From a virus: a DNA stretch of 33,410 nt. The notes beneath the pieces were generated by a model. That model saw only the letters and a program-made list of their open reading frames with translations, did not search any database and was not told the origin of the DNA. The translations under genes and the position numbers were made by a program. Positions 16,819-28,869 of the stretch are shown here, piece after piece (position 1 is the stretch's first letter; the number at the start of each line of letters is the position of its first letter). The DNA lies in IMG/VR virus record IMGVR_UViG_3300021963_000016, positions 1 to 33,410 of that record, one strand, 5' to 3'.

Positions 16819-17205
16819 ATGGAAAAGAAACCTAAAAAACCTACAAGGACTTCTATAGTTAAAAAGCTTGATACAGTCTTTAGTATATATATAAGACGCA
16901 GATATGCGGTGAATGATATATCTAAATGTGTTACTTGTGGTAAAGAAGACCACTGGAAAAGTTTACAATGTGGACACTTTATGTCACGCAAACATCTATC
17001 TACAAGATGGAATGAAGACAATTGCCAAGTACAATGTGCAGGATGCAACGTATTTCGATACGGGGAACAATACATATTCAGTCAATATCTTGGTGATAAG
17101 TTAGCCAATGAACTATACATTAAATCAAAAGAAACTTGTAAATTTACAGACGTAGAACTACAAGAACTAATTGAACACTACACACAACTAAATAGTCTTT
17201 TCTGA
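16819..17205 (+). CDS. ninG: NinG/Rap-like recombination protein
   Basis: I start at ATG 16819 rather than the TTG six bases earlier. The 128-aa product has the NinG pattern: a basic start, 'CVTCGK' (C37, C40), 'LQCGHFMSRKHLSTRWNEDN' (C51, H53, H59) and 'CQVQCAGCNVFRYGE' (C69, C73, C76), a zinc-held HNH-like core. Lambda NinG (Rap) cuts branched recombination intermediates in Red-type recombination. Here it opens the early region, close to the ERF annealing protein and SSB, which fits a phage recombination pathway. It is shorter than lambda NinG, as in many Bacteroidota phages. Confidence 0.85.
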   Translation: MEKKPKKPTRTSIVKKLDTVFSIYIRRRYAVNDISKCVTCGKEDHWKSLQCGHFMSRKHLSTRWNEDNCQVQCAGCNVFRYGEQYIFSQYLGDKLANELYIKSKETCKFTDVELQELIEHYTQLNSLF

Positions 17206-17236
17206 TTTCTCTTTATAATTTGGTTAATGTTAAATT

Positions 17237-17265
17237 GGGCTACTTTAAACGGTAGCCCTTTTTTT
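17237..17265 (+). terminator. Intrinsic terminator after ninG
   Basis: The stem is GGGCTAC (17237-17243) paired with GTAGCCC (17252-17258), 7 perfect base pairs, with an 8-nt loop and seven T at 17259-17265. It isolates ninG as a one-gene unit from the promoter just downstream. Confidence 0.88.
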
Positions 17266-17304
17266 GGCAAAAGTGTTAAAGAAATGTTAAAATTTAAAAT
17301 CATA

Positions 17305-17335
17305 GTATTTTATCTAAAATGAATTTATACATTTG
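17305..17335 (+). promoter_or_regulatory. Early promoter (Bacteroidota type)
   Basis: The -7 box TACATTTG (17328-17335) is followed by CTTCA, as at 25613-25625. The -33 region is weak (ATTTT near 17307-17310, spacer about 17). It lies between a terminator and the start at 17364, giving a leader of about 20 nt. It probably drives the operon 17364-20583. Confidence 0.65.
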
Positions 17336-17363
17336 CTTCATCAAACAATAACAAATAGAAATT

Positions 17364-17465
17364 ATGAAAGCAATCAAAACATTTTTAACAAAAGCAAATT
17401 ACCAAATTTTATTCGCACAAGCATTAGCCTTGTATTTTTTAATCCAAATAATTTTAAGATACTAA
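17364..17465 (+). CDS. 33-aa single-membrane-span peptide
   Basis: This is a 33-aa peptide: a short amphipathic basic start (MKAIKTFLTKANYQ) then a hydrophobic helix (about 15-31). It is the first gene behind the early promoter, with the local AATTATG start context. Its stop shares a base with the next ATG (TAATG). Its size and position suggest an early membrane-targeted microprotein, perhaps acting on the host envelope or excluding other phages; that is conjecture. Confidence 0.6.
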   Translation: MKAIKTFLTKANYQILFAQALALYFLIQIILRY

Positions 17466-17644
17466 TGAAAGATTTAATCGACTTTAACAGATTTCAAATA
17501 GAAGCACTACAAGCAGAAATTTGTAAACTAAAACAGGAAAACAATTTACTATCTACTTATTGCTTTGAAGCATTAGAAGAAGGAATTACACAAGAGTACA
17601 AAACATTAATCAAACAACAAATTTACCAATTAAAACAAAACTAA
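17465..17644 (+). CDS. Small coiled-coil protein (59 aa)
   Basis: I place the start at ATG 17465, which overlaps the previous stop; the longer in-frame reading from 17333 would begin inside the promoter. The 59-aa protein is a Leu/Ile/Glu/Lys coiled coil ('FQIEALQAEICKLKQENNLL'), then 'EGITQEYKTLIKQQI'. It probably dimerises. Its function is unknown. It belongs to the operon leading to the ERF gene. Confidence 0.65.
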   Translation: MKDLIDFNRFQIEALQAEICKLKQENNLLSTYCFEALEEGITQEYKTLIKQQIYQLKQN

Positions 17645-17646
17645 TT

Positions 17647-17826
17647 ATGAAAAAATACGAATTAATTTGGGATGATGAAAAAATGGTATTAAGTAGAACT
17701 AATGATGGTTTTAATGCTTTAGAATTATTAGGTGTTTTAGAAATAACTATTCAATCAATTAAAGACCAAATGACAGGTAAAGATACTACACCTATAAAAA
17801 CAATTAAAAAACAAATAAAAAACTAA
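17647..17826 (+). CDS. Small early protein (59 aa)
   Basis: This 59-aa protein begins MKKYELIWDDEKM and ends with a basic tail KTIKKQIKN. The start (AACTAATTATGAAA) is the same junction sequence as at the next gene (17829). It has a helical middle ('NALELLGVLEITIQSIKDQM'). No family is recognised. It is two bases upstream of the ERF gene and so co-transcribed. Confidence 0.65.
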   Translation: MKKYELIWDDEKMVLSRTNDGFNALELLGVLEITIQSIKDQMTGKDTTPIKTIKKQIKN

Positions 17827-17828
17827 TT

Positions 17829-18419
17829 ATGAAAGAATTATCATTAAACGAAAAATTAAGCAGAATTCAAATTGAATTTAAAGCTAACAAGTCAAGGTTT
17901 AACAGCTTTGGAAAATATAATTTTAGAAGTGCTGAAGATATATTAGAAGGTTTAAAACCATTCAACGAAAAGTATGGTGTATCTTTTACAATTACAGAAG
18001 AATTAGTAACCAATGATTTTGTAGCTAATACAATTCCTATGATGAAATCAACCGCAACTATATTTGACAACAATGGTATTAATGAATTAAGTGCTACTGC
18101 TATTGTAGGGGTAGATTTAAACCAAAAAGGTATGCAAGTACCTCAACAATTTGGTTCAGCTTCTTCTTATGCTAAAAAGTATGCTTTAGGAAACCTATTA
18201 TTAATTGACGATACACAAGACGCTGACGCTGCTAACAAACACGACAAAACAGATAGCGCAAATAATGCACCAACTGATGACAAAAAGTGGCTAAACAAAA
18301 ACACACCTGAATTTAGTAAATCAATTGAATACTTAAAAGGTGGTGGTAATATAGAAGCTATTGAAAAAAAGTATAAATTAGCCAAAGCAGTTAAGGACGA
18401 ATTATTAAAAGTAAAATAA
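17829..18419 (+). CDS. erf: ERF-family single-strand annealing protein
   Basis: This 196-aa recombinase anneals complementary single strands in phage recombination and circularisation. The ERF domain covers about residues 5-135: 'RFNSFGKYNFRSAEDILEGLKPF' in outline (about 23-45), a beta segment 'STATIFDNNGINELSATAIV', and the hallmark 'GSASSYAKKYALGNLLLIDD' (109-128). The C-terminal part is a variable, acidic then basic tail, ending in a helix that may contact SSB. Its neighbours NinG, SSB and the flap-type exonuclease make a complete annealing pathway. Confidence 0.88.
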   Translation: MKELSLNEKLSRIQIEFKANKSRFNSFGKYNFRSAEDILEGLKPFNEKYGVSFTITEELVTNDFVANTIPMMKSTATIFDNNGINELSATAIVGVDLNQKGMQVPQQFGSASSYAKKYALGNLLLIDDTQDADAANKHDKTDSANNAPTDDKKWLNKNTPEFSKSIEYLKGGGNIEAIEKKYKLAKAVKDELLKVK

Positions 18420-18422
18420 GAT

Positions 18423-18558
18423 ATGAGAAACATACACGTATTACCAACAGAGAAACCGAGTAAACTATTCTACAATGTAGGAGGAGCTTTATTATTTACA
18501 GATTATGAAAATTATAACGGTGTTAATATCTGCATCACTTCTGATGAAGAAATTAAAG
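18423..18558 (+). repeat. Mosaic repeat block A, copy 1
   Basis: 136 bases that match 26127-26262 without gaps, with about nine differences by eye. It encodes the shared N-terminus of two paralogous early proteins. Confidence 0.9.
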
Positions 18559-19238
18559 TAGGAGATTATGTTATTAATTCTGCAGCTTCATATGTATTTC
18601 AACATTATTTTGCAGAAGGTAATCTTTATAAAGAATGCAAAAAAATCATCCTAACAACAGACCAAGACTTAATCAAAGATGGTGTACAAGCTATTGATGA
18701 TGATTTCCTTGAATGGTTTGTTAAGAATCCAAGTTGTGAGTTTGTTGAGATTGATAATAGACCAAAAGTATCTTCATTTGAAAAAGGTTTTATGATAGAC
18801 AATCCTAATTACAACAAAATCATCATTCCAAAAGAAGAAGCTAAACAAGAAGGTTACATTTGTCCACATACTAAATTACAATGTGATAATGAATGTTGTG
18901 TAAGTGCATCAGATTGCCATATAAAAACAACAATAGGTATTATATCAGAACCTAAACAAGAAACACTTGAAAACATTTTTAATTGGAAACCTATTTATGC
19001 AAGTTCACGCAAGCAAGAAACAATTGAACAAGCATCAGAATACTACGCACATAACTATTTTTATATGCACGTAACAAATGACTATAAAGCACTAAAACAG
19101 GGGTTTGAAGCAGGCGTTAAATGGCAACAAGAACAAGACAAGAATACGTATAGTGAAGATGATATTAGTACAGCAATTGCTATGTATTTAGAAAATAAAT
19201 CATTCTCTGAAATTATTAAACAACTTAAAAACAAATAA
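18423..19238 (+). CDS. Mosaic early protein with Cys/His cluster (271 aa)
   Basis: This is a 271-aa protein of unknown function. Residues 1-45 ('IHVLPTEKPSKLFYNVGGAL') and about 73-106 ('IILTTDQDLIKDGVQAIDDD') are almost identical, also as DNA, to the protein at 26127, while the segments between differ. A Cys/His cluster follows ('CPHTKLQCDNECCVSASDCHI', about 142-162 in outline), possibly zinc-binding. The C-terminal part has 'GFEAGVKWQQEQDKNTYSEDD' and ends QLKNK. The KWQQEQ module also appears in the gene at 19812 and in the remnant at 26010. The last codons belong to the 20-nt linker repeat. This looks like a gene built from exchangeable modules. Confidence 0.7.
   Translation: MRNIHVLPTEKPSKLFYNVGGALLFTDYENYNGVNICITSDEEIKVGDYVINSAASYVFQHYFAEGNLYKECKKIILTTDQDLIKDGVQAIDDDFLEWFVKNPSCEFVEIDNRPKVSSFEKGFMIDNPNYNKIIIPKEEAKQEGYICPHTKLQCDNECCVSASDCHIKTTIGIISEPKQETLENIFNWKPIYASSRKQETIEQASEYYAHNYFYMHVTNDYKALKQGFEAGVKWQQEQDKNTYSEDDISTAIAMYLENKSFSEIIKQLKNK
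18639..18739 (+). repeat. Mosaic repeat block B, copy 1
   Basis: 101 bases that match 26373-26473, with two differences by eye. Between blocks A and B the two genes diverge and differ by 30 nt in length, so the conserved blocks flank a replaced segment. Confidence 0.9.
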
Positions 19239-19241
19239 GAT

Positions 19242-19586
19242 ATGGAAAATTTAACATTAGGAACATCGCAAACTTACACTAACGACCCTATCAATAATTT
19301 AGAAACTACTACTAATAATTTTAACATAGCGCATACAAGTGCAACAACTGCTGGATATATGTGGACTAATCCTACAAGATTAGAAGTACGTGAATTATCA
19401 GATAGTATTGAGATTATTTACGAGGAAACATCATTTATGAATTTTACAATTTATCCTTCACCACCACCTGAAAAAAGATACTTTAAAATTGTATTTAGTT
19501 GTGTAGATGGTAAATGGAATAAATCTGAAAGAATATACGGAGAAAAAATTGAACGTGAAGAATATTTTGAATTTAAAAACAAATAA
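19242..19586 (+). CDS. Paralogous early protein, copy 1 (114 aa)
   Basis: This 114-aa protein has a counterpart at 26916. Shared parts are the start (MENL, GTSQTYTNDP), 'MWTNPTRL', 'DSIE.IYEETS' and 'PPEKRYFKI.FSCVDGKWNK' to the end 'EYFEF'. Residues about 17-38 are low-complexity Asn/Thr-rich and differ between the two. It is beta-rich, without a signal or membrane segment. Here the frame continues into the linker as FKNK; in the second copy it does not. Function is unknown. Confidence 0.7.
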   Translation: MENLTLGTSQTYTNDPINNLETTTNNFNIAHTSATTAGYMWTNPTRLEVRELSDSIEIIYEETSFMNFTIYPSPPPEKRYFKIVFSCVDGKWNKSERIYGEKIEREEYFEFKNK

Positions 19587-19589
19587 GAT

Positions 19590-19712
19590 ATGAGAAATAC
19601 ATCATTAAGCAACAATAAATCAATAAATTCTATTGGTTTTATGAAAGATGTTCCTGCAACAATTATTTACGATTATAGTACTAAATGGTTTGAACAACTT
19701 AAATACAAATAA
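19590..19712 (+). CDS. Small ORF in linker cluster (40 aa)
   Basis: This 40-aa ORF runs from one linker copy to the next: MRNTSLSNNKSINSIGFMKD... ending 'WFEQLKYK'. The end is the linker-encoded tail in a variant form (KYK for KNK). It is too short for a family call. The EQLKYK end suggests it may be the shortened tail of a larger cassette protein. Confidence 0.5.
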   Translation: MRNTSLSNNKSINSIGFMKDVPATIIYDYSTKWFEQLKYK

Positions 19713-19715
19713 GAA

Positions 19716-19808
19716 ATGATAGAATTACTTTGTAGCATTATCATTGCTCTGCCTATATGGTTAGTTGCATTAGAGTTAAGACAGATGAATAAATTTAAAA
19801 ACAAATAA
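19716..19808 (+). CDS. 30-aa membrane peptide in linker cluster
   Basis: This 30-aa peptide has one hydrophobic helix (about 3-19, 'ELLCSIIIALPIWLVAL') and a basic tail ending in the linker-encoded NKFKNK. Start and stop both lie in linker copies. It resembles the two other membrane peptides in cluster 2 (26668 and 26797) in design, not in sequence. Confidence 0.5.
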   Translation: MIELLCSIIIALPIWLVALELRQMNKFKNK

Positions 19809-19811
19809 GAT

Positions 19812-20015
19812 ATGAAAACATTAATACCAATGACCAGCTTTGTGTTGGAACAAGAACAAAACAAGAATAAGTATAGTGAGGAAGATATGTTAAAAATGCT
19901 TCGCAAATTTGGCTTTGATTATACTTACAACTACAAAGGAGAAAAAACTATTTACGAATGGATACCTGAATGGTTTAAAGAATACAAAAGATTAGAACAA
20001 CTTAAAAACAAATAA
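19812..20015 (+). CDS. Small protein sharing the QEQ module (67 aa)
   Basis: This 67-aa protein has 'FVLEQEQNKNKYSEEDM' near the start (about 10-26), which matches 'KWQQEQDKNTYSEDD' in the large protein at 18423. The rest ('FGFDYTYNYKGEKTIYEWI') is unique. It ends QLKNK in the linker. It looks like a short gene made from the C-terminal module of the larger protein plus new sequence. Function is unknown. Confidence 0.6.
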   Translation: MKTLIPMTSFVLEQEQNKNKYSEEDMLKMLRKFGFDYTYNYKGEKTIYEWIPEWFKEYKRLEQLKNK

Positions 20016-20018
20016 GAT

Positions 20019-20225
20019 ATGAAATCAATAACAAGGTCAGTAATTAAGTTGTCAGAACTTCCTGAACACTTACAAAAAGCTACAATATTTAAAGGACATA
20101 AAATACACACTTATGCAGAATTTCATATTGATGATTCAGAAAAAGATGAATTAACAATGTGGTTAATAGATAAGTATCCTACAATAAAACGTAAGATTAG
20201 CTTTTTAATTCATATAGATAAATAA
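20019..20225 (+). CDS. Early protein (68 aa), unknown function
   Basis: This 68-aa protein starts from the last linker copy of cluster 1 but does not end in one. It reads MKSITRSVIKLSELPEHLQ... 'AEFHIDDSEKDELTMWLIDKYP' ... It is mixed alpha/beta with an acidic middle and a basic end. No motif is recognised. It is the last gene before SSB. Confidence 0.6.
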   Translation: MKSITRSVIKLSELPEHLQKATIFKGHKIHTYAEFHIDDSEKDELTMWLIDKYPTIKRKISFLIHIDK

Positions 20226-20286
20226 TAAACAGGGTAGCCGAAAACTGAATAGAGTAGGCAAAGTAAACAATCAAAAAATAATAATT

Positions 20287-20583
20287 ATGGGTGCATTAAT
20301 TAATGTAAGTTTAAGAGTAGACAAATTACCAAAAGAAAAATTTGTTGCTGGTAAAGATGGCGCAGTTTATTACAACTTCACTATTGGAGTAAATGACGAA
20401 GCTAACCAGTTTGGGCAAAATGTTTCTTTAACAGATTCACAAACCAAAGAAGAGCGTGAAGCTAAAAAAGCTAAAAACTACATCGGTAACGGGTCAGTAG
20501 TTTGGACAGATGGTAACATTGTAGCTGTAAAAAAAGAGCAACCTGCAACTGCTAAAGAAGTAGCTTCAGATTTACCTTTCTAA
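20287..20583 (+). CDS. ssb: Single-stranded DNA-binding protein
   Basis: This 98-aa protein shows a short OB-fold pattern: 'ALINVSLRVDKLPKEKFVAG', 'VYYNFTIGVNDEANQFGQNVSLTDSQTKEE' in outline, 'YIGNGSVVWTDGNIV'. It ends in the SSB-type acidic tip 'ASDLPF', which recruits partner proteins. It is shorter than bacterial SSB, as is usual for phages of this group. It lies between the ERF gene set and the PP-loop and ATPase genes, and a strong terminator follows directly. Confidence 0.75.
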   Translation: MGALINVSLRVDKLPKEKFVAGKDGAVYYNFTIGVNDEANQFGQNVSLTDSQTKEEREAKKAKNYIGNGSVVWTDGNIVAVKKEQPATAKEVASDLPF

Positions 20584-20590
20584 ATTAATT

Positions 20591-20625
20591 GGGTGCAGTA
20601 TAGGGATATCGCTGCACCCTTTTTT
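20591..20625 (+). terminator. Intrinsic terminator after ssb
   Basis: A perfect 8-bp stem, GGGTGCAG (20591-20598) with CTGCACCC (20612-20619), a 13-nt loop and six T (20620-20625). It rules out the in-frame upstream start at 20593 for the next gene. Confidence 0.9.
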
Positions 20626-20637
20626 AATCAAAATTAT

Positions 20638-21486
20638 ATGAAAACAGTTAATTCAATTTCAGGTGGTAAAACATCAGCATACATAGCAGCTAATTATCCT
20701 GCAGACTACAATATTTTTTCTTTAGTTAGAATTGAAGATACTGATAACTTATGGATGAAAGGAAAAGATGAAAATACAAGGCAATTAATATCTGATAAAT
20801 TAGGAAAAGAGTTCATTGGTACTGCTGAAATGGATGAAATAATTTACACTATTTTAGATTTAGAGCAGTTTATTGGTTCAGAAATAACTTGGATAACAGG
20901 AAACACATTTGAAGAAGTTATAAAACAGAATTACAATTACCTTCCAAATAAAATGACAAGGTACTGCACTGTAGAAATGAAACTAAAACCTATATTTAAT
21001 TGGTTAAGAGAAAATACAGAATTACCTGTAGAAATGAGAATAGGATTTAGACCGAATGAATTATCTCGTGCTGAAGGAGTTTTAAAACGTGCAGATGAAA
21101 ATGGTTTAGAATTATTTGATGCAGTTATAGGTAAAGCAGGTAGCAGAAATAAATGGGGAAAAGTTCCATATAGATACTGCAAGTTTCAATTAATTGAAAA
21201 TAATATTCAAAAAGATATAATTTACAACTATTGGAATGATAAAAAAGTTAGATTTGCATATAGAAATAATTGCGTAGGATGTGTTAATAGACAACCTTTG
21301 ATGATTTCACATATGGCAAGTAAAGATTTAGAAAAGATTAAATGGTTTGAAAAGCAAGAATTGAAAACAGGGAATAGATTTTTATCAGATGTTTCTTTTA
21401 CTCAAATATTAAAATTTGGTATGCAAGAAAATTTATTTACTGATGAAGATTTTAACGAATGTGATTCAGGTTTTTGTGGAATATAA
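20638..21486 (+). CDS. PP-loop (PAPS reductase-like) enzyme with Cys cluster
   Basis: I start at ATG 20638, because an earlier in-frame reading begins inside the terminator. The 282-aa protein has the ATP pyrophosphatase loop 'SISGGKTSAY' (SGGKTS, 8-13), 'RYCTVEMKLKPIF' (C110), the segment typical of PAPS-reductase-like proteins, 'YRYCKF' (C181), 'NNCVGCVNRQP' (C212, C215) and the C-terminal 'CDSGFC' (C275, C280). The Cys set could hold an Fe-S cluster. Such enzymes adenylate a substrate for sulfur or nitrogen transfer, in sulfate assimilation, tRNA thiolation or DNA modification. Which of these applies is not visible. Other modification genes are absent, so it may act on host tRNA or metabolites. 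Confidence 0.75.
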   Translation: MKTVNSISGGKTSAYIAANYPADYNIFSLVRIEDTDNLWMKGKDENTRQLISDKLGKEFIGTAEMDEIIYTILDLEQFIGSEITWITGNTFEEVIKQNYNYLPNKMTRYCTVEMKLKPIFNWLRENTELPVEMRIGFRPNELSRAEGVLKRADENGLELFDAVIGKAGSRNKWGKVPYRYCKFQLIENNIQKDIIYNYWNDKKVRFAYRNNCVGCVNRQPLMISHMASKDLEKIKWFEKQELKTGNRFLSDVSFTQILKFGMQENLFTDEDFNECDSGFCGI

Positions 21487-21500
21487 CAACATAACAAATT

Positions 21501-22349
21501 ATGGAATTAGATAAAGATGCAGTACAACTTCTTATGGAGATGTATGAAGATGAATTAAGAATAGACCCAACACAAAAAATAGAACATCCTGAACCGGCTT
21601 TATCTTTAGGTACAAAAACATACGAAACAAAAGATGGTGTAAAAGAATTCCCTTTACCATTAGGAACATACGGAAACTTTAGCTTTGTACAAGCACCTCC
21701 TAAAAGCAAAAAGACATTCTTTATTTCACTTTTAAGTGCAGTTTATATGAAAGGTAGACTTGACGCATTCGGTGGAGAATTACAAGGTTACAGCAACGGA
21801 AAACACCTGATACATTTTGATACTGAACAAGGGAACTTTCACGCTCAAATGGTTTTTAGAAGACCAATTGATATGACTGAAATAGACACAAAGAAATATC
21901 ATACGTTTGCACTACGTCAATTAGGATTTAAAGAACGCATACAATTTATAGAATGGTACTTGTATGACAAATTAGAAGGTAAAGATGTAGGTTTAGTAAT
22001 TATAGATGGTGTAGCGGATTTATGTAGTGATGTAAATAATATTGAAGAATCAAATGCGGTAGTTCAAAAGCTAATGAAGTGGTCAAAAGAATTGAATTGC
22101 CACATTATAACAGTTATTCATAGTAACTTTGGTTCAGATAAACCTACGGGGCATTTAGGTTCATTTTTAGAAAAGAAAACAGAAACACAAATACAATTAG
22201 AACTTAACACAGTAAACAAAGACTTGGTAACTGTAAGCTGTAAAAGAAGTAGAAACGCATCATTTGAAACTTTCTCTTTCAAAGTAAATAACTTTGGATT
22301 GCCACAAGTAGAAGGAGCAGTTTACGACCCATTAAAAGGTGTGTTTTAA
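21501..22349 (+). CDS. RecA-fold ATPase, RepA/DnaB-like, degenerate Walker A
   Basis: This 282-aa protein has a RecA/AAA_25-type core. The P-loop is 'QAPPKSKKTFF' (65-72), in which both usual Gly are replaced (A and K), leaving the Lys-Thr. Also visible are 'LIHFDTEQ' (E109), Walker B 'GLVIIDGVADL' (164-174), and 'HIITVIHSN' (about 196-204), a sensor-like strand. This matches the KSKKT-type ATPases common in Bacteroidota phages, placed with hexameric helicases such as RepA. It probably loads or unwinds DNA in replication. No primase or polymerase is nearby. Confidence 0.75.
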   Translation: MELDKDAVQLLMEMYEDELRIDPTQKIEHPEPALSLGTKTYETKDGVKEFPLPLGTYGNFSFVQAPPKSKKTFFISLLSAVYMKGRLDAFGGELQGYSNGKHLIHFDTEQGNFHAQMVFRRPIDMTEIDTKKYHTFALRQLGFKERIQFIEWYLYDKLEGKDVGLVIIDGVADLCSDVNNIEESNAVVQKLMKWSKELNCHIITVIHSNFGSDKPTGHLGSFLEKKTETQIQLELNTVNKDLVTVSCKRSRNASFETFSFKVNNFGLPQVEGAVYDPLKGVF

Positions 22350-22376
22350 ATTGTTAATAACTTTTAATTATATTTA
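22348..22376 (+). promoter_or_regulatory. Promoter/operator-like element abutting a start, copy 2
   Basis: 29 bases that match 16787-16815 at 25 positions: TTG (22351-22353), a 15-base spacer and TATATTTA (22369-22376). The box ends four bases before ATG 22381. The last base of the TAnnTTTG box is A here, so promoter strength is doubtful; the shared geometry argues for a common regulator or leaderless start. Confidence 0.4.
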
Positions 22377-22380
22377 CAAA

Positions 22381-22680
22381 ATGAAAACAACTATTAAAAA
22401 CCAAATTCAGGAATTAAAAAATACAGCATCAAGAACAGGATTGGTATTCTGTGATAATAAAGTTATGTTTTCTTTTGTGCAAGATGTACTTTTAAAGTTA
22501 GAACAGATAGAAGATTTAATTGAATTAGAAAACGAATTACATTTTACAGATGTAGCTGATGCAGTTAAGAATATGTACAAGAAGGATGAGAACCTTACAC
22601 ACGTTTATGTTAACTTTCAGGTTCGACCTGTAGAAGTAGAAAAAAAGTTTGGTGTAATTGATGCTAAATTATACCTATAA
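22381..22680 (+). CDS. Early helical protein (99 aa)
   Basis: I start at ATG 22381 (ACAAAATG context); the earlier in-frame ATG at 22339 lies inside the ATPase gene. The 99-aa product is helical ('KNQIQELKNTASRTGLVF', 'FSFVQDVLLKLEQIEDLIEL') with a beta-like end 'THVYVNFQVRPVEVEKKF'. No family is recognised. A promoter-like element just upstream may let it be made separately from the ATPase. Confidence 0.65.
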   Translation: MKTTIKNQIQELKNTASRTGLVFCDNKVMFSFVQDVLLKLEQIEDLIELENELHFTDVADAVKNMYKKDENLTHVYVNFQVRPVEVEKKFGVIDAKLYL

Positions 22681-22738
22681 AAATATTAGTTTAGAATAGT
22701 CAGAAAAGAAAAATTGATTATTAATTTAAACTATTTAT

Positions 22739-22951
22739 ATGATTACAATTTTATTTGCTATTGCAGCAGTTTGTTGGATTGTCCTAATGATGATTCAAAA
22801 GTATGGAGGTGAATTAATTATAAACCCTATTATTGGTTTTATGGTTGGATGGCTATACGATGGTGAAGAAGAAGATGGTGTAACTAATCACACTATTCAA
22901 GTTCTTTTAGGTGTAATATGTTTTACTATAGTTTGGGAAACTTATGAGTAA
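22739..22951 (+). CDS. Small membrane protein (70 aa), two spans
   Basis: This 70-aa protein has two hydrophobic stretches, about residues 2-19 ('ITILFAIAAVCWIVLMMI') and 52-66 ('TIQVLLGVICFTIVW'), joined by an acidic loop 'YDGEEEDG'. A third weak stretch lies at about 27-39. It overlaps the sigma-like gene by 8 bases. An early membrane protein of this kind may act on the host envelope or exclude other phages, but nothing in the sequence proves it. Confidence 0.6.
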   Translation: MITILFAIAAVCWIVLMMIQKYGGELIINPIIGFMVGWLYDGEEEDGVTNHTIQVLLGVICFTIVWETYE

Positions 22952-23483
22952 TCAATGGTTAGCCAAGGTGGCACAGTACCATAACGATTGGGTAAAAGTT
23001 ATTCAAACATTTGGAGAATATGACTACGCTGAAGACATAGTACAGGAATCTTATATTGCACTATGGAAATATGCAGATGCTGATAAATTAATTGATGCAA
23101 ATGGTGAGGTAAGAAAGGGATATATGTACTTCACACTACGTTCTTTATTTTATCAATACTATAACAAAAAGAAAAAGATTAATAAAGTTTCTTTTGATGG
23201 ATGTTGGGAATTGTTTGATGATTCAAATATAGAAGAACATAAGGCATATAATGATATATGTATGCTGATAGATGAAGAAATAAAGAATTGGGATTGGTAC
23301 GATAGAAAACTATTTAAGCTATACAGGGACACAGATTTATCTATGCGTGATATAGCTAAAGAAACTAATATTAGTTTAATTTCAATATTTAATTCAATTA
23401 AAAATTACAAGATTATTTTGAAAGAAAAGTTTGAAAATGATTATCAAGAATATATTAATAACGACTATAATATGATGTACTAA
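22944..23483 (+). CDS. Sigma-70-like RNA polymerase factor
   Basis: This 179-aa protein resembles small sigma factors. Residues about 28-43 ('YAEDIVQESYIALWKY') match the core of region 2 (DxVQExYxxLW), which contacts RNA polymerase. The C-terminal helix-turn-helix (about 130-155, 'DLSMRDIAKETNISLISIFN') matches region 4, which reads the -35/-33 element. The linker is short and acidic. It may redirect the host polymerase to late phage genes, where I could not find clear host-type promoters. The stop shares a base with the next ATG (TAATG). Confidence 0.75.
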   Translation: MSNQWLAKVAQYHNDWVKVIQTFGEYDYAEDIVQESYIALWKYADADKLIDANGEVRKGYMYFTLRSLFYQYYNKKKKINKVSFDGCWELFDDSNIEEHKAYNDICMLIDEEIKNWDWYDRKLFKLYRDTDLSMRDIAKETNISLISIFNSIKNYKIILKEKFENDYQEYINNDYNMMY

Positions 23484-23866
23484 TGGCAAAAAGAAAAACA
23501 CCTGCTCGTGGATTAGGGGATACCATAGAGCAAATTACAGAAGCAACAGGAATAAAGAAAGTTGTAGAAGTATTCAGCAAAGCAACCGGATTAGATTGTG
23601 GTTGCGAAGAACGTAAAGCAAAACTAAATAACTTAATTCCATATAGAAGAAAAGTTAATTGCTTAACAGAATCAGACTATGAAGCATTAAAACCTTTTGT
23701 TTCACCAAAGAAAGGTAGTTTAACACCAAACGAACAATGGCAGATTCAAGCTATTTACTTTAGAGTATTTGAAGTAAAATTAGACGATAGTAATTGTGCT
23801 TCTTGTTGGAGAGATATTATCAATGATTTGAGAAAGGTATTTAACGAATACCAAGTAAATGAATAA
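23483..23866 (+). CDS. Conserved phage protein with Cys pairs (127 aa)
   Basis: This 127-aa protein has a start 'ARGLGDTIEQITEATGIKKVVEVF' in outline, then 'DCGCEERKAKLN' (C39, C41), C60, and 'NCASCWRDIINDLRKVF' (C105, C108). I know this GLGDTI/DCGC pattern from many Flavobacterium-type phages, always without a function. The Cys pairs suggest a small zinc site. It is coupled to the sigma-like gene upstream and overlaps the nuclease gene downstream by 8 bases, so it may be a partner of either. Confidence 0.7.
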   Translation: MAKRKTPARGLGDTIEQITEATGIKKVVEVFSKATGLDCGCEERKAKLNNLIPYRRKVNCLTESDYEALKPFVSPKKGSLTPNEQWQIQAIYFRVFEVKLDDSNCASCWRDIINDLRKVFNEYQVNE

Positions 23867-24251
23867 TTGGAAGGAAATAGATTTATTTAACTATCTAAAA
23901 GAAAATGTTTACTTTGATTTAGTTAAGTCAAGAAATCAGATGTCACGGTGGGATTGTTATAGTCCCGCCACAGGACATCGTATAGAGCTAAAATGTAGGA
24001 CAAGACACTTTGATACACTACTACTTGAAAAGAAGAAATATATAGCAATGATAGAAGAATGTGAAAAGCATTTAGATATACCAATTTATATTAATTCAAC
24101 ACCAAAAGGTGTATTCAGTTTTAACCTGCATAAGATAGAACCAACATTTGAAACAAACACAAAGAATCCAGCTACAACACAATTCTACAACACGCAACGA
24201 ATAGAAAAAGAAGTAGCATATTTAGAAATTAACCAAGCATTACAATTATGA
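23859..24251 (+). CDS. PD-(D/E)XK nuclease-like protein
   Basis: This 130-aa protein has the core of a PD-(D/E)XK nuclease: D32 in 'SRWDCYSPATGHRIELKCR', then E43-L-K45 after a hairpin, and 'TRHFDTLLLEKKKYIAMIEE', the helix that follows in many resolvase- or restriction-type members. The later part ('IPIYINSTPKGVFSFNLHKI') is beta-type. It could be a Holliday-junction resolvase or a general endonuclease for recombination intermediates. Neighbours are small early genes linked by overlaps. Motif spacing supports the fold; the exact substrate is unknown. Confidence 0.65.
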   Translation: MNNWKEIDLFNYLKENVYFDLVKSRNQMSRWDCYSPATGHRIELKCRTRHFDTLLLEKKKYIAMIEECEKHLDIPIYINSTPKGVFSFNLHKIEPTFETNTKNPATTQFYNTQRIEKEVAYLEINQALQL

Positions 24252-24607
24252 ACAACAATCCAATACAATTAGAATTTTTAAAATCAGTACTATTATCACA
24301 ATTACTTTTAGAATGTAATGAGAATTTACGTTACACAAAGCAATATAACGGTGCTTTAAAGCACTTACTTAATAAAGTAAATAGTCAGCTCGAAACAACT
24401 GTTTTTGATGAATACAGAAAGATTTATGAAGCTGATGCAGAAATGACTACAAACATTTTAAATAGTATTGAAGACATAGTTATTAAATTAACTACTTCAG
24501 ATTTGGATGAACTTGTAATGATTAACGCAGTTATTGAAAAGTATAAAGAAAACAAAAATTGGTTCTTGGAATATGGTCAAGCTGAATTTTTAAGAATAGA
24601 TGGCTAA
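24248..24607 (+). CDS. Early helical protein (119 aa)
   Basis: This 119-aa, almost fully helical, acidic protein contains 'LEFLKSVLLSQLLLECNENLRYTKQYNG' in outline and 'TTNILNSIEDIVIKLTT'. Its ATG overlaps the nuclease stop (ATGA), and it overlaps the next gene by 8 bases. No domain is recognised. The tight coupling suggests it works with the neighbouring small genes. Confidence 0.65.
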   Translation: MNNNPIQLEFLKSVLLSQLLLECNENLRYTKQYNGALKHLLNKVNSQLETTVFDEYRKIYEADAEMTTNILNSIEDIVIKLTTSDLDELVMINAVIEKYKENKNWFLEYGQAEFLRIDG

Positions 24608-24854
24608 AAAGAAAATAGAAATATATTCACCACATTACACACAGGTAAATGCAATGGTGTATTGTGTTAAAAGAAACGTAGCTTATTCACTTGAAGCTAA
24701 TAAGAATAAAAGATTCTACATAGTTAAATATATTCCAAGTGATTACAAGAATGTAATATACTTAAAAGATAATAACAAGAAAGTAGAGTTCAACGAATAC
24801 GAAGCAACAAAAAAGATAATGGAATTATATATTAACCAAAGTAAATTATTATGA
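24600..24854 (+). CDS. Small basic early protein (84 aa)
   Basis: This 84-aa basic protein begins MAKKKIEIYSPHYTQVNAM and has alternating strands ('KNKRFYIVKYIPSDYKNVIYL'), ending in a helix. The sheet-helix order with many Lys suggests nucleic-acid binding, but I recognise no family. It overlaps both neighbours (8 and 4 bases). Confidence 0.65.
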   Translation: MAKKKIEIYSPHYTQVNAMVYCVKRNVAYSLEANKNKRFYIVKYIPSDYKNVIYLKDNNKKVEFNEYEATKKIMELYINQSKLL

Positions 24855-25075
24855 GTAAAGTAAAAGACACAATGTCAGAATGGATTGAAGCACAAGTTAA
24901 AGATAGTGTAGTGCAGTCAGTAATTAATAAATTTAAACAACGTAGTGAAGTAGGAATACAAAAATACAATACTACATTAGACCGTGAAGATTTAACTGAT
25001 AAAGAATGGATAAACCACGCACAAGAAGAAGCAATGGATTTAATTTTATATCTCGAGAAACTTAAAAGACTATGA
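24851..25075 (+). CDS. MazG/NTP-PPase-like helical protein (74 aa)
   Basis: This 74-aa protein contains 'RSEVGIQKYNTTLDREDLTDKEWINHAQEEAMDLILYLEKL', shown here in outline: a KYG-like turn, a D-R-x-D loop, then EWxxHAxEEAxDxxxYxEKL (about 50-72). That last part is the usual end of small all-alpha proteins related to MazG/dNTP pyrophosphohydrolases in phages. It has only part of the full catalytic fold, so it may be a regulatory or truncated member. It is coupled on both sides by ATGA overlaps. Confidence 0.6.
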   Translation: MSKVKDTMSEWIEAQVKDSVVQSVINKFKQRSEVGIQKYNTTLDREDLTDKEWINHAQEEAMDLILYLEKLKRL

Positions 25076-25431
25076 AATATAAAAAAATAAATATTCCTAT
25101 TTATAATCAAGTATTACATATAGTAATATCTGAAGATGCAGAAAAAGAAATAAAAGATATAAATAAAAAATTCTATTGTGAATTTGACAATTATGATTTT
25201 GCAGGATATTCAATAGGAATAAATAGACATAACTTATTATTAATAAATAATAAAAATATACCTGATGAAGCTTTTAAGATTAGTGTAATATCACACGAGG
25301 CATTTCATATAACTAATTTTATATCTAAAAGAATAGGTATTCATCCTGATGTAAACAACGATGAACCACAAGCATATTTATTGTCTTGGATAGTAGAAGA
25401 AACAATTAAATTTATGACAAATGAAAAGTAA
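25072..25431 (+). CDS. Minimal zinc metallopeptidase-like protein
   Basis: This 119-aa protein has HExxH as 'SHEAFHITNF' (H75, E76, H79) and, 18 residues later, 'NDEPQAYLLSWIVEE' (E98), the likely third zinc ligand, as in short gluzincin-type phage proteins. There is no signal peptide, so it should act in the cytoplasm, for example on a host or phage protein early in infection. It is larger than neither ImmA nor SprT families and lacks their other motifs. The ATG overlaps the previous stop. Confidence 0.7.
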   Translation: MKYKKINIPIYNQVLHIVISEDAEKEIKDINKKFYCEFDNYDFAGYSIGINRHNLLLINNKNIPDEAFKISVISHEAFHITNFISKRIGIHPDVNNDEPQAYLLSWIVEETIKFMTNEK

Positions 25432-25555
25432 ACAAACACCACTACAAAGAATCCAAAGAGTAATGAAATTCAATTATAATAGAGGATTGAACTCGGAGCG
25501 AGTTAATGCAGTATATAGAAAGATTATAAAACTAAAATTAGAGGGTAGCAATTAG
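25421..25555 (+). CDS. Small basic protein (44 aa), stop inside terminator
   Basis: This 44-aa protein, very Lys/Arg-rich (MKSKQTPLQRIQRVMKF...), overlaps the metallopeptidase by 11 bases. Its TAG (25553-25555) lies in the loop and right stem of the terminator, so the last ribosome can open the hairpin, and termination could depend on translation of this ORF. It looks like an RNA- or DNA-binding peptide. Confidence 0.6.
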   Translation: MKSKQTPLQRIQRVMKFNYNRGLNSERVNAVYRKIIKLKLEGSN

Positions 25556-25570
25556 CTATCCTTTTTTTTT
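25543..25570 (+). terminator. Intrinsic terminator overlapping a stop codon
   Basis: The stem is GGGTAGC (25543-25549) with GCTATCC (25555-25561), 7 bp with one G-U pair, a 5-nt loop and nine T (25562-25570). The stop codon of the upstream ORF is at the loop/stem edge. It closes the operon 22739-25555. Confidence 0.88.
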
Positions 25571-25589
25571 GTTAATTTTTTGTTAATAC

Positions 25590-25620
25590 TTGCACAATGT
25601 AAATAAGTTGTTTATATTTG
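25590..25620 (+). promoter_or_regulatory. Early promoter (Bacteroidota consensus)
   Basis: TTG (25590-25592), a 20-base spacer and TATATTTG (25613-25620): a near-ideal Bacteroidota promoter. It sits just downstream of a terminator and about 23 bases before ATG 25644. The -7 box and following CTTCAACATT are shared with 31348-31365 and, in part, 17328. Confidence 0.82.
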
Positions 25621-25643
25621 CTTCAACATTAAAACCAAACATT

Positions 25644-25793
25644 ATGGAAGAATTTAAAAAATGCGAAAGTTGTAATATAAACAAAGAAGGCAACTTTGGT
25701 TGTTGTCCTTGGGATGAAGAGTTTAATACTGAAATAGAAAATAATTGCAACTGCTGTGAAAGTTGTAGAAACGAATGTTTATACAGTATTTAA
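25644..25793 (+). CDS. Cys-rich small protein (49 aa)
   Basis: I use ATG 25644, because the longer frame from 25590 begins inside the promoter. The 49-aa product has nine Cys: CxxC (C7, C10), CC (C20, C21), then C35, C37, C38, C41, C45. The spacing suggests two zinc sites or a redox role in the cytoplasm. The middle is acidic with 'PWDEEF'. It is the first gene behind a strong promoter, so it is likely made early and in quantity. No family is recognised. Confidence 0.7.
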   Translation: MEEFKKCESCNINKEGNFGCCPWDEEFNTEIENNCNCCESCRNECLYSI

Positions 25794-25803
25794 AAAAAAC
25801 AAA

Positions 25804-26013
25804 ATGACAAAGCAAGAAATCAAAACAGAATTAGAAAATGTAATCTACGTTTTAGAAACATTGGAAAACGATTACGCAACACTTAAACTAAAAGCAGTAC
25901 TATTAGCTTTAGAACAAGATTGGAATGAATCAGCTTACTTTACGCAAGAAATAGATACTATTCTAAACTATGAAGAAACAATGCAAAATTTTAATAACAT
26001 TAAAATTAGATAA
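25804..26013 (+). CDS. Small helical early protein (69 aa)
   Basis: I start at ATG 25804 (AACAAAATG); an earlier in-frame ATG lies inside the Cys-rich gene. The 69-aa, acidic, helical protein (MTKQEIKTELENVIYVLETL...) contains 'LKLKAVLLALEQDWNESAYF'. No family is recognised. Its 3' end touches the headless remnant at 26010. Confidence 0.65.
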   Translation: MTKQEIKTELENVIYVLETLENDYATLKLKAVLLALEQDWNESAYFTQEIDTILNYEETMQNFNNIKIR

Positions 26014-26123
26014 AATGGAAACAAGAACAAATAGGTAAGTCAGAGTTTCTACAAAAATTAAGAGCAACAATCTCTGATGCAGAAGCAAGAAGATTAATAT
26101 TTGAACAATTTAAAAACAAATAA
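26010..26123 (+). pseudogene. Headless remnant of a linker-type gene (C-terminal module)
   Basis: An open stretch of 37 codons, with a TAG stop just before it (26007-26009) and no ATG, GTG or TTG start, reads 'KWKQEQIGKSEFLQKLRATI' and then 'SDAEARRLIFEQFKNK'. The KW-QEQ core matches the C-terminal part of the protein at 18423 (VKWQQEQ), and the end is the linker tail FKNK. The upstream gene's stop falls at its left edge. This looks like the tail of a cassette gene whose front was lost by recombination. A non-standard start (ATA or ATT) is the alternative. Confidence 0.7.
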
Positions 26124-26126
26124 GAA

Positions 26127-26262
26127 ATGAAAAACATACACGTATTACCAACAGAGAAACCAAGTAAACTATTCTACAATGTAGGAGGAGCTTTACTATT
26201 TACAAATTACGAAAACCATAACGGTGTTAACATCTACATCACTTCTGATGAAGAAATTAAAG
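26127..26262 (+). repeat. Mosaic repeat block A, copy 2
   Basis: Matches 18423-18558 without gaps, with about nine differences by eye. Most differences are silent or conservative, so both copies seem to be under selection. Confidence 0.9.
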
Positions 26263-26666
26263 AGGGGGATTGGTGCTTCTATGTTAATAGTATATATAAA
26301 GTATTAAGAATTAGCAGTAATAATAGGCCTATAATAAAAATGTCTGATGGTACATTTGAAATATCTTATTATAAAAAAATCATCCTAACAACAGACCAAG
26401 ACTTAATCAAAGATGGTGTACAAGCTATTGATGATGAGTTCCTTGAATGGTTTGTTAAGAATCCGAGTTGTGATGAGGTTAAGGTAAATAATTTATGTTA
26501 TGGTGCTTTAGGCGCATTTGCTGATGCAGGTTACAAAATCATCATTCCAAGAACAACTGAACAATTTAAAAAATCGGATTGTCAACATCAATTCATAAGA
26601 ACGGGTGATTCATTTGATTTGACTATTTACTGTAAAAAATGTGGTATAAACTATAAAAACAAATAA
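26127..26666 (+). CDS. Mosaic early protein, paralog of 18423 (179 aa)
   Basis: This 179-aa protein shares residues 1-45 and about 83-115 with the 271-aa protein at 18423, at near-identical DNA level, but the segment between and the C-terminal part differ. Its own C-terminus has 'DCQHQFIRTGDSFDLTIYCKKCGINYKNK', here in outline: C, H and a CxxC pair, like a small zinc ribbon. It ends in YKNK at a linker copy. The pair shows replacement of central and C-terminal modules around a conserved frame. Function is unknown. Confidence 0.7.
   Translation: MKNIHVLPTEKPSKLFYNVGGALLFTNYENHNGVNIYITSDEEIKEGDWCFYVNSIYKVLRISSNNRPIIKMSDGTFEISYYKKIILTTDQDLIKDGVQAIDDEFLEWFVKNPSCDEVKVNNLCYGALGAFADAGYKIIIPRTTEQFKKSDCQHQFIRTGDSFDLTIYCKKCGINYKNK
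26373..26473 (+). repeat. Mosaic repeat block B, copy 2
   Basis: Matches 18639-18739 with two differences. It is closer to its partner than block A, which fits more recent exchange or conversion. Confidence 0.9.
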
Positions 26667-26667
26667 G

Positions 26668-26793
26668 ATGATATTAGAAACAATTTTAGAGACGTCATAC
26701 TATATTATAGCAACATTAATAACAACAGCAATAGTAATAGCTTTAGTTAGGTTAATAATAGAATTAATAAAAGAAACATTTAAAAACAAATAA
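26668..26793 (+). CDS. Membrane peptide in linker cluster (41 aa)
   Basis: This 41-aa peptide has a long hydrophobic helix (about 11-33, 'YYIIATLITTAIVIALVRLI') between an acidic start and the tail ETFKNK. The ATG follows the upstream stop by one base (TAAGATG). It begins and ends in linker copies. One inner-membrane span is expected. Function is unknown. Confidence 0.6.
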   Translation: MILETILETSYYIIATLITTAIVIALVRLIIELIKETFKNK

Positions 26794-26796
26794 GAT

Positions 26797-26883
26797 ATGA
26801 CAAGTATTATAAGTGGTTTTTTAGGAATTATTGTAGGATTAATTATAGTTTTACTTATTGCTCATAAATTTAAAAACAAATAA
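26797..26883 (+). CDS. 28-aa membrane peptide in linker cluster
   Basis: This 28-aa peptide (MTSIISGFLGIIVGLIIVLL...) is one hydrophobic helix with a GxxxG-like pattern and a basic tail KFKNK. It starts in an exact linker and ends in a half linker. It could oligomerise in the membrane. It may be a real microprotein or just a frame bounded by linkers. Confidence 0.5.
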   Translation: MTSIISGFLGIIVGLIIVLLIAHKFKNK

Positions 26884-26915
26884 CCCCGATTGCAAGGATA
26901 AGTGCTACAAAAATT

Positions 26916-27236
26916 ATGGAAAATTTAACATCAGGAACATCACAAACTTACACAAATGACCCATTAATTACTACAGGAACAGTATATACAGGAACAGGCG
27001 GAACAACTGTTGGGTTTATGTGGACTAATCCTACAAGATTACAAGTAAATGAACGAATAGATAGTATCGAGATGATTTATGAAGAAACATCACTTGCAAC
27101 TTTAACTATCCATTTTTCCCAACCACCTGAAAAAAGATACTTTAAAATTATATTTAGTTGTGTAGATGGTAAATGGAATAAGTCTGAAAGGATTTATGGA
27201 AAAAAAATTGAACATCAAGAATATTTTGAATTTTAA
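26916..27236 (+). CDS. Paralogous early protein, copy 2 (106 aa)
   Basis: This 106-aa counterpart of 19242 has the same start (MENLT-GTSQTYTNDP), a different Thr/Gly-rich insert (about 17-32), then 'MWTNPTRLQV', 'DSIEMIYEETS' and 'CVDGKWNKSERIYG'. It ends at EYFEF because one extra T at 27231-27234 creates an early TAA. The linker DNA behind it is nevertheless perfect. Upstream (26884-26915) a short stretch reads DCKDKCYKN in one frame, like the KCYYK part of the protein at 29108, perhaps a trace of a lost gene. Confidence 0.7.
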   Translation: MENLTSGTSQTYTNDPLITTGTVYTGTGGTTVGFMWTNPTRLQVNERIDSIEMIYEETSLATLTIHFSQPPEKRYFKIIFSCVDGKWNKSERIYGKKIEHQEYFEF

Positions 27237-27249
27237 AAACAAATAAGAT

Positions 27250-27474
27250 ATGACAGCAGTAGAATGGTATTCTCAACAACATTTAAAACTTTTAATCAAG
27301 TTAGAAAATAAAGAATTAAGTATCGGAGAATACGCAGTGCAACACCAAGAAATGGAAAAGCAACAGATTATTGATGCGCATTTAAACGGACAAGCAGAAT
27401 TTGACAAAGGAAAGTTTAGGAAAGAAGTTATGATAAACGCAGAAGAATACTACAACGAAACATTTAACATATGA
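27250..27474 (+). CDS. Small early protein (74 aa)
   Basis: This 74-aa helical, Glu/Gln-rich protein starts in the last linker of cluster 2: MTAVEWYSQQHLKLLIKLEN... 'QHQEMEKQQIIDAHLNGQAE'... It ends YNETFNI. This W/Y-S-QQ and 'QEMEKQQI.DA' pattern is typical of small phage proteins of unknown function. Its stop overlaps the next ATG (ATGA). Confidence 0.65.
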   Translation: MTAVEWYSQQHLKLLIKLENKELSIGEYAVQHQEMEKQQIIDAHLNGQAEFDKGKFRKEVMINAEEYYNETFNI

Positions 27475-27668
27475 ATGAAGATGCAACTATAAAAATATTC
27501 AGCAAGATACAATCTTTAGAGAGAGACTTGCAATGGATATACCACGAATACTTCAACGCACAGATAAATGATGACCAATTTATGGCAATGATAGATTCTA
27601 CTGAAAGAGATATACAAACACACTATTATATTTACGACTTAATTATACAAGATGCAAGAAAAAATTAA
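27471..27668 (+). CDS. Small helical early protein (65 aa)
   Basis: This 65-aa, helical, acidic protein is MNEDATIKIFSKIQSLERDL... with 'YFNAQINDDQFMAMIDSTER'. It is coupled by ATGA to the gene before and lies six bases before the exonuclease. No family is recognised. Confidence 0.65.
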   Translation: MNEDATIKIFSKIQSLERDLQWIYHEYFNAQINDDQFMAMIDSTERDIQTHYYIYDLIIQDARKN

Positions 27669-27674
27669 AAAATT

Positions 27675-28388
27675 ATGATAGTATTATTTGATGCAGATAG
27701 TTTGATATTTTCAAGCTGCTATAAGAAAAGAGAAAACATAGAAGATGATGGCTTTCATCACAACATAGAAGATTCAATAGCTAAATTTGATGAAGTGTTT
27801 ATGTCGATTATAAATCACTTGGAAGATTTATATGAAATAAATGAAGTAAGAACTTTTTCAGGAAGCAAGGGCAATTTCAGAAAATACATTTCAAAGAAAT
27901 ATAAAGCTAATAGAGATTATAATAACTTACCACCTTTGTTAGATGAAATGCATTGTTTTGTAAAAGAGCAATATAATTCTATTTGGGGATATGGATGCGA
28001 AACAGATGATGTAGTAGCAAAACATTGGTATGAGTTGTCAAACGAAATAGGAAGGGATAATGTAATAATAGTTTCAATAGATAAAGACTATAAACAATTT
28101 CCTTGTTTAATGTATAACTATCATATAAAACATAAAGAAATTTATGACATATCAGAAGAAGAAGCAATGTATAACTTTTACGAACAGATGATAATAGGAG
28201 ATACAGCAGATAATGTAAACTACTGTAAAGGATATGGTAAAAAGTTTGCAGAGAAGTATCTAAAAGATTGTAGGAGCCAATATCAGTACACTAAAAAGAT
28301 ATACAATTTGTTTAAAGAAATACATAAAGGAAAAGCAAGACAGAGATATATTGAATGTTGGAACTTATTAAAACTAAAAACAGAATAA
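27675..28388 (+). CDS. 5'-3' exonuclease / flap endonuclease-like
   Basis: This 237-aa protein has the FEN/T5 D15-type pattern of metal-binding acids: 'VLFDADSLIF' (D6, D8), 'FSGSKGNFRKYISKKYKANRD' in outline (about 61-81), 'CETDDVVA' (E109, D111, D112), 'VSIDKDYKQFP' (D136, D138) and 'GDTADNVNYCKGYGKKFAEK' in outline, the H3TH-type DNA-binding loop. It is a nuclease that removes 5' flaps or resects ends, which supplies the single strands that ERF and SSB need. Length is normal for phage members. Confidence 0.85.
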   Translation: MIVLFDADSLIFSSCYKKRENIEDDGFHHNIEDSIAKFDEVFMSIINHLEDLYEINEVRTFSGSKGNFRKYISKKYKANRDYNNLPPLLDEMHCFVKEQYNSIWGYGCETDDVVAKHWYELSNEIGRDNVIIVSIDKDYKQFPCLMYNYHIKHKEIYDISEEEAMYNFYEQMIIGDTADNVNYCKGYGKKFAEKYLKDCRSQYQYTKKIYNLFKEIHKGKARQRYIECWNLLKLKTE

Positions 28389-28392
28389 AGAA

Positions 28393-28869
28393 ATGGAAAA
28401 TCAGATAAAAGAATTAATATTAAAAGAGTTAAAAGTAGATATAACTGAAAATTGCAGGAAGCGAGAAATAATTGAAGGTAGAGCATTATACTTCTATTTA
28501 GTTAGAAAACTATATAAGAAAAGAAGCTTACAATCTATAGCTGCAGACTTCGATATGAATCACGCTACAGTTGTACACGCATTAAAGAACTTTTCAATGT
28601 ATGAAGAATACAACACAAAGATATTAGACTGCAAGAATTTAATATTAAAACTATTGGGAGGTGAAGTAGAACAAGAACTATCACAAGAAGACATCTTTAA
28701 GAAGAAGTTGCACGATTTAGAAAAGCAATTGAATCAACCAAGATACGAATACAAAATAATAGAAAACCTAAACAACTTATTAGAAGCTACTAAAGGAACT
28801 GAACAACACGAGTTAATCACTTTACGATTAGAAGCATTCTATTCAATGAATAAAAACATAAGACTATGA
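28393..28869 (+). CDS. Free-standing DnaA domain IV-like protein
   Basis: This 158-aa protein has the DNA-binding domain of the DnaA initiator without the AAA+ part: 'CRKREIIEGRALYFYLVRKL' (about 21-40), 'SLQSIAADFDMNHATVVHALKN' in outline (about 45-66). 'NHATVVHALKN' matches the DnaA signature. The rest is a helical, charged tail that may contact other proteins. It could bind DnaA boxes on host or phage DNA to recruit or block host initiation. I saw no cluster of standard DnaA boxes in this genome, so the target is open. Confidence 0.8.
   Translation: MENQIKELILKELKVDITENCRKREIIEGRALYFYLVRKLYKKRSLQSIAADFDMNHATVVHALKNFSMYEEYNTKILDCKNLILKLLGGEVEQELSQEDIFKKKLHDLEKQLNQPRYEYKIIENLNNLLEATKGTEQHELITLRLEAFYSMNKNIRL

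Follow-up and report, generated by a model that had tools for sequence, protein, structure and literature searches.

Short repeated sequences that border accessory genes have been described before, and the nearest known kinds to the element reported here are the PeSL cassettes of T4-type phages and the SAS of cluster K mycobacteriophages. PeSL are reportedly short repeated promoter-terminator borders of accessory genes in plastic regions, for which modular shuffling by homologous recombination is said to have been proposed. A further parallel is the integron array, in which head-to-tail single-gene cassettes, each with a repeat behind it, are gained and lost as whole units through an integrase and a folded attC site. 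SAS and ESAS are short asymmetric repeats just before the starts of small, mutually unrelated genes within the non-structural half of the genome; they occur in one orientation, are not found in the host, sometimes include an upstream stop codon and differ in consensus by sublineage, the 13-bp SAS consensus GGGATAGGAGCCC containing a stretch for Shine-Dalgarno pairing (PMC3203893). Lambdoid phages have boundary sequences, and their modular evolution involves Rad52-like annealases needing only 23–27 bp (PMC3945230). Here we describe a 20-nt repeat, TTAAAAACAAATAAGATATG (linker A), in IMG/VR virus record IMGVR_UViG_3300021963_000016. The stretch analysed, hereafter the window, is 33,410 bases long and encodes ERF, terminase and tail genes. 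We consider it probable that the 20-mer is a stop-start seam supplying about 20–25 bp of homology for cassette exchange.

Linker A is present in the window as six exact and two near copies, all at gene junctions and all on the coding strand (Table 1). Shuffled sequence gave a mean of 0.09 matches to TTAAAAACAAATAAGATATG, near copies included, and never reached eight. The unit reads (F/L)-K-N-K-stop, then GAT, then ATG: in five of the six exact copies the upstream gene ends in frame with KNK and its stop, and the next ATG follows after a 3-nt gap. At the sixth, 27233, the linker DNA is intact, but it is out of frame with gene 26916 because of one extra T, so that this gene ends at 27236, within the linker. 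A preliminary description of this DNA had placed all six exact copies correctly. Of its four near copies, those at 26110 (one mismatch) and 19699 (two mismatches) hold, whereas those at 26654 and 26870 contain only the left part.

Compared with the known systems, the linker is familiar in outline and distinct in construction. It resembles PeSL as a short repeated sequence bordering accessory genes, and the genes at its borders likewise differ between related phages. PeSL, however, reportedly combine an early promoter with a terminator stem-loop, whereas the linker lacks a hairpin and extends from the coding end of the upstream gene across a stop to a start codon. With SAS it shares a position a few nucleotides before the starts of many families (at least 104 for the linker), yet SAS is 13 bp long with a Shine-Dalgarno core, while the linker has another sequence, lacks AGGAG and reads through the upstream C terminus. 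Unlike SAS, it is common to phages with contigs of 22–256 kb and bounds clean cassette gain and loss. Lambdoid boundary sequences also offer short homology at module borders, but here one sequence stands at many borders per genome, so any cassette could join any other. A search of the open-access literature, with subscription papers outside its coverage, found no description of the linker.

The linker joins a large and diverse set of genes. A start-context survey of all fetched loci (numbered with the prefix L) returned two dominant 13-mers. Directly behind the core of linker A, AAACAAATAAGAT, lie genes of at least 104 distinct protein families (154 loci), and behind AACAACAAGAACA, the core of a second linker with overlapping stop and start codons (linker B, TTTAAACAACAAGAACAATGA), genes of at least 109 families (129 loci); the 13-mer ranking next precedes only 23. 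Minor junction sequences include linker C, TTTAAATCAGAATAAGATG. The 548 cassettes surveyed fall into 251 families, 184 of them singletons. This diversity bears on the possibility that the repeats are remnants of local tandem duplication, in which copies of one ancestral gene diverged while their ends stayed alike. The two clusters in the window do have two paralogue pairs in common, a qualification to the earlier remark that the flanking genes are mostly unrelated, which otherwise stands, and several cassette proteins contain pieces of one mosaic family. The number of families behind the core, however, rules out simple tandem duplication; moreover, the hydrophobic peptides, lipoprotein-like proteins and Cys-rich proteins have no common body, and both clusters are missing as blocks in close relatives. 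We give this account very little credence: the linker is neither confined to the window nor always placed between the same two families, the findings that the preliminary description had named as telling for duplication. Linkers A, B and C could serve as a search key to a large, mostly unannotated pool of early genes that may include anti-host or anti-defence genes.

There is good support for cassette exchange at the seam. Comparison of 243 dereplicated linker copies gave 61 pairs with only the left gene in common, 70 with only the right and three with both, the last count being lowered by the prior removal of exact duplicates. In some pairs the left gene is up to 100% identical in DNA across the 200 nt leading to the linker while the right gene is different. 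Whole cassettes are also gained and lost: at a position where L120 shows one linker, L061 carries two linker-bounded cassettes, the 200-nt flanks being 98–99% identical, and L428 has two where L462 has a single linker B. L458 and L486 hold three cassettes in the same order, with four additional genes before the first in L486 and three between the first and second in L458, and every outer joint of the inserted blocks is linker B. Across the loci compared, partner adjacency is broken at a fraction of 0.62–0.69 of linker junctions; for the remaining junctions between small genes of these loci the fraction is 0.32–0.36, and nine of 521 insertion events have linkers at both ends where random placement predicts 0.23. 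The cassette array suggested earlier, with the linker as a widespread border, is borne out by near-identical phages that differ by cassettes exactly between linkers.

Several results weigh against the seam as we read it. Loci not picked by linker (14–17 junctions) give a weak contrast, 0.36/0.53 versus 0.34/0.37. When both ends of an event are forced onto gene starts, 10.2 linker-bounded events are predicted and nine are seen, and because of this the counts do not separate linker-driven from gene-border exchange; that control is too strict, in that most events probably do not fall at gene starts. The contigs are metagenomic, two key ones are shorter than 6 kb, and a misjoin at a 20–24 bp repeat is possible. 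No single annealase family is common to the linker contigs, and the G at -3 and T at -6 of the linker are not the bases favoured in Flavobacterium johnsoniae (PMC6847099). We favour seam-driven exchange because the breakpoints are precise, identity runs through the upstream coding end and the length fits known recombination lengths. The seam homology itself may drive exchange, with a Rad52-like annealase as the putative recombinase.

In the mechanism we propose, the seam would join small accessory genes of the early region, in phages whose hosts are probably Bacteroidota. It would encode the last residues and stop of any upstream gene and, beyond a 3-nt gap, would give the next gene its A-rich leader and ATG. 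With the same 20–25 bp at every junction, homologous recombination, probably of the annealase type, could take place between any two seams and would remove, add or swap whole cassettes, and the new junction would again be a complete stop-start unit that leaves the array readable. Phage lineages would differ in seam allele (A here; B and C elsewhere), the same families taking on the local tail and leader. Acquisition and reordering of small early phage genes are mostly known only as after-the-fact mosaicism; a seam of stop, leader, start and recombination-length homology would make gene exchange visible and testable. It predicts the sites of gene entry, the phages between which trade is possible and the immediate expression of every incoming gene.

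Could the linker instead be kept for expression only, as a lineage-specific start or coupling signal in the manner of SAS, while genes shuffle at their borders by ordinary selection and the linker is recopied? It lies directly at start codons, and its run of A from -15 to -11 falls where Bacteroidota initiation favours A, the favoured positions in Flavobacterium being -3, -6, -12 and -13 (PMC6847099). RNA folding of five linker windows was no better than that of shuffles (z 0.51 to 1.12) and gave no hairpin, so no structure would block the start; the alleles vary by lineage, as SAS and ESAS vary between subclusters (PMC3203893); and the gene-start-conditioned control showed no excess of linker-bounded events. 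Yet a start signal needs no conserved upstream (F/L)KNK end, and identity extends through it. In some copies the reading frame does not fit the upstream gene or, as at 26870, no start follows, the favoured bases at -3 and -6 are missing, and breakpoints in near-identical phages lie on linkers. We judge expression alone a rather unlikely explanation. Linker A, which contains no AGGAG or other Shine-Dalgarno core, is compatible with a start region without being an optimum, and its use in translation initiation is plausible from its sequence.

The linker is not accounted for by convergence of these phages on an optimal start of translation. A position-specific first-order model of 2386 start contexts, taken from relatives picked independently of the linker, predicts 0, 0.04 and 0.27 contexts at zero, one and two mismatches, where three, six and five were observed; at five or more mismatches the counts agree with the model. 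The near-exact copies form a separate group beyond the model, and because their counts exceed it we regard the linker copies as related by descent.

The linker length suggests a class of recombinase. Minimal pairing segments are 23–27 bp for Red beta and 31–34 for RecA (PMC3945230), and the linker with its usual flanks, at about 20–25 bp, fits the former rather than the latter. In a set of 33 linker contigs, many of them possibly partial, ERF is present in six, RecT in three and Sak in two, with 11 of the 33 encoding any of them. The occurrence of ERF in just six does not support it as shared machinery; the preliminary description had suggested, tentatively, exchange through the phage's own ERF pathway. 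A dedicated recombinase using the linker as its site, as in integrons, is a further candidate: both systems are head-to-tail arrays of single-gene units with one repeat per gene, gained and lost whole, and linker copies nearly all share one orientation per record. The linker, however, is neither palindromic nor folded in the manner of attC, and it doubles as the start region of the next gene. Integrons rely on a tyrosine integrase, whereas no integrase or transposase was found among the part of the window's genes that was searched against Pfam and PHROG, and alleles A and B are alike in little beyond TTTAAA. We give site-specific recombination almost no weight.

Another possibility is that what is conserved is a C-terminal peptide tag (FKNK*, FKQQEQ* or FKSE*, the asterisk marking the stop), acting for example in stability or localisation, with DNA identity as a by-product. 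Most copies do encode (F/L)KNK* in frame, and the tails vary with lineage. Against this, many copies, that at 27233 included, lie in a frame other than that of the gene before them, the N codon goes to Lys codons as readily as to synonymous AAT, and the non-coding GAT and the ATG belong to the conserved unit. The out-of-frame copies and the N-codon changes make a tag unlikely as the sole explanation, and we hold this account to be very improbable.

Linker A is one allele within a class of linkers. Both A and B precede members of eight protein families, whose tails, FKNK* or KQQEQ*, match the local linker. The ITRSVIKL family (gene 20019), fetched without reference to the linker, has different recurrent junctions by phage, often identical on both sides. 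In L365, L371, L386 and L344, private junctions such as ATTACTTAAATAGAAATGATATG and TAAACAACAAGACAAATG flank the gene of this family, which suggests more alleles than A, B and C. No copy of linker B is present in the window. A lax count, which may score one copy under two sub-patterns and which draws on partial loci, many of them chosen by linker, found 216 loci with A only, 108 with B only and none with at least two A-type and at least two B-type matches; L063 and L106, from one contig, combine an A start with a B-like end. Exclusivity of A and B is provisionally strong, not absolute. The alleles may possibly define compatibility groups, a suggestion we make only tentatively, in which A-phages trade cassettes among themselves, B-phages do likewise and a gene that passes from one group to the other acquires the tail of the local linker. 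If so, the large pool of accessory genes would be divided by linker allele into communities that exchange separately. Shared lineage alone could also yield the separation.

Linker A is a phage-specific element, because the exact 20-mer occurs in at least 119 stretches among viral contigs and, in bacterial and archaeal genomes totalling 257 Gb, in four. Of these four, a single one has the cassette families: L131, a contig of 7.1 kb that was binned as Flavobacterium and looks phage-derived. Among 300 genomes from the genus of this metagenome-assembled genome, one contains linker A, namely that genome itself, and none of 300 drawn from the genus contains linker B. Linker B is likewise abundant in viral contigs, the matches listed being a lower bound. 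In 50 viral records of 22–256 kb, most of them picked for holding the linker and so informative on arrangement rather than frequency, 48 have one to eight copies of linker A (at most one mismatch), mostly clustered. The copies lie on one strand in all but one record, and a reversed-pattern control gave no matches. The nearest isolate-phage DNA is a 143-nt stretch, 71% identical, in Flavobacterium BAL314 phages. This match and the one binned contig suggest that linker phages probably infect flavobacteria or other Bacteroidota.

Both clusters are insertions between genes that are adjacent in sister phages. The distance from ERF to the homologue of gene 20287 is about 60 bp in most ERF-related phages and 1.87 kb in the window. 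In L014 this site is filled by a 2.0-kb array that differs from the one here and carries linker copies of its own. The sequence after the ERF stop in relatives differs from the GATATG of the window. The genes flanking cluster 2, 25804 and 27471, adjoin or overlap in relatives L213, L217 and L224. At the ERF-20287 site, L147, L217 and L252 have one unrelated gene without linkers, MKVCTKCK..EKPLD..FRIRK.RKSGYRSDC, of 166–168 aa and HNH-endonuclease-like by eye only.

Table 1. Linker copies, cassette genes and neighbouring genes in the window.
Feature	Position	Strand	Remarks
Part linker, GATATG	18420..18425	+	directly after ERF stop codon (TAA); left seam of cluster 1
Linker A, exact	19225..19244	+	ends mosaic gene 18423 (..QLKNK*), starts 19242
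Linker A, exact	19573..19592	+	ends 19242 (..FEFKNK*), starts 19590
Linker A, 2 mismatches	19699..19718	+	ends 19590 (..EQLKYK*), starts 19716
Linker A, exact	19795..19814	+	ends 19716 (..NKFKNK*), starts 19812
Linker A, exact	20002..20021	+	ends 19812 (..EQLKNK*), starts 20019
Linker A, 1 mismatch	26110..26129	+	ends 3' mosaic-gene fragment (..LIFEQFKNK*), starts 26127
Linker-like TATAAAAACAAATAAGATG	26652..26670	+	ends 26127, starts 26668; left part of linker only
Linker A, exact	26780..26799	+	ends 26668, starts 26797
Left part of linker, TTAAAAACAAATAA	26870..26883	+	ends 26797; no start codon after
Linker A, exact	27233..27252	+	out of frame with 26916; starts 27250
ERF single-strand annealing protein	17829..18419	+	PF04404, E 1.2e-31; phrog_155; left neighbour of cluster 1
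Cassette gene, mosaic MKNIHVLPT family, 271 aa	18423..19238	+	
Cassette gene, 114 aa	19242..19586	+	paralogue of 26916
Cassette gene, 40 aa	19590..19712	+	
Cassette gene, 30 aa, hydrophobic (probably membrane) peptide	19716..19808	+	other partners in L023, L069
Cassette gene, 67 aa	19812..20015	+	with C-terminal part of mosaic family
Cassette gene, ITRSVIKL family, 68 aa	20019..20225	+	behind other linkers in other phages
Conserved gene, SSB-like (by eye only)	20287..20583	+	right of cluster 1; no Pfam match
Conserved gene	25804..26013	+	left neighbour of cluster 2
Cassette gene, mosaic family, 179 aa	26127..26666	+	paralogue of 18423
Cassette gene, 41 aa, hydrophobic (probably membrane) peptide	26668..26793	+	
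Cassette gene, 28 aa, hydrophobic (probably membrane) peptide	26797..26883	+	
Cassette gene, 106 aa	26916..27236	+	paralogue of 19242
Cassette gene, TAVEWL family (..YYNETFNI*), 74 aa	27250..27474	+	last in cluster 2
Conserved gene	27471..27668	+	right neighbour of cluster 2

The paralogue pairs 18423/26127 and 19242/26916 span both clusters, with 82–92% DNA identity in matching blocks; the other genes of the two clusters are unrelated. Gene 18423 has no Pfam or PHROG match; tblastn against 50,697 phage records gave no match for 18423 and none better than E 0.1 for 26127. Cluster 2 opens at 26014–26126 with a mosaic-gene 3' fragment that is without its N-terminal part and ends in the linker. 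An intact relative is present in L131 and ends in SEFLQKLRGTLSDAEARRLIFEQFKKK and a stop.

A second leader-like repeat, GATTGCAAGGNTAAGTGCTA, precedes a start codon at 26888–26907 of the window. Roughly 14 further viral-contig loci, some sharing a contig, also have it, and L313 has copies at 1612, 2606, 3108 and 3641. An Rfam scan of 17000–28500 gave a sole match, outside the linker: RF02914 (DUF805b cis-regulatory RNA) at 20228–20260, with 39.5 bits, above gathering, in the leader of gene 20287. In most relatives an RF02914-like sequence is retained between ERF and the 20287 homologue.

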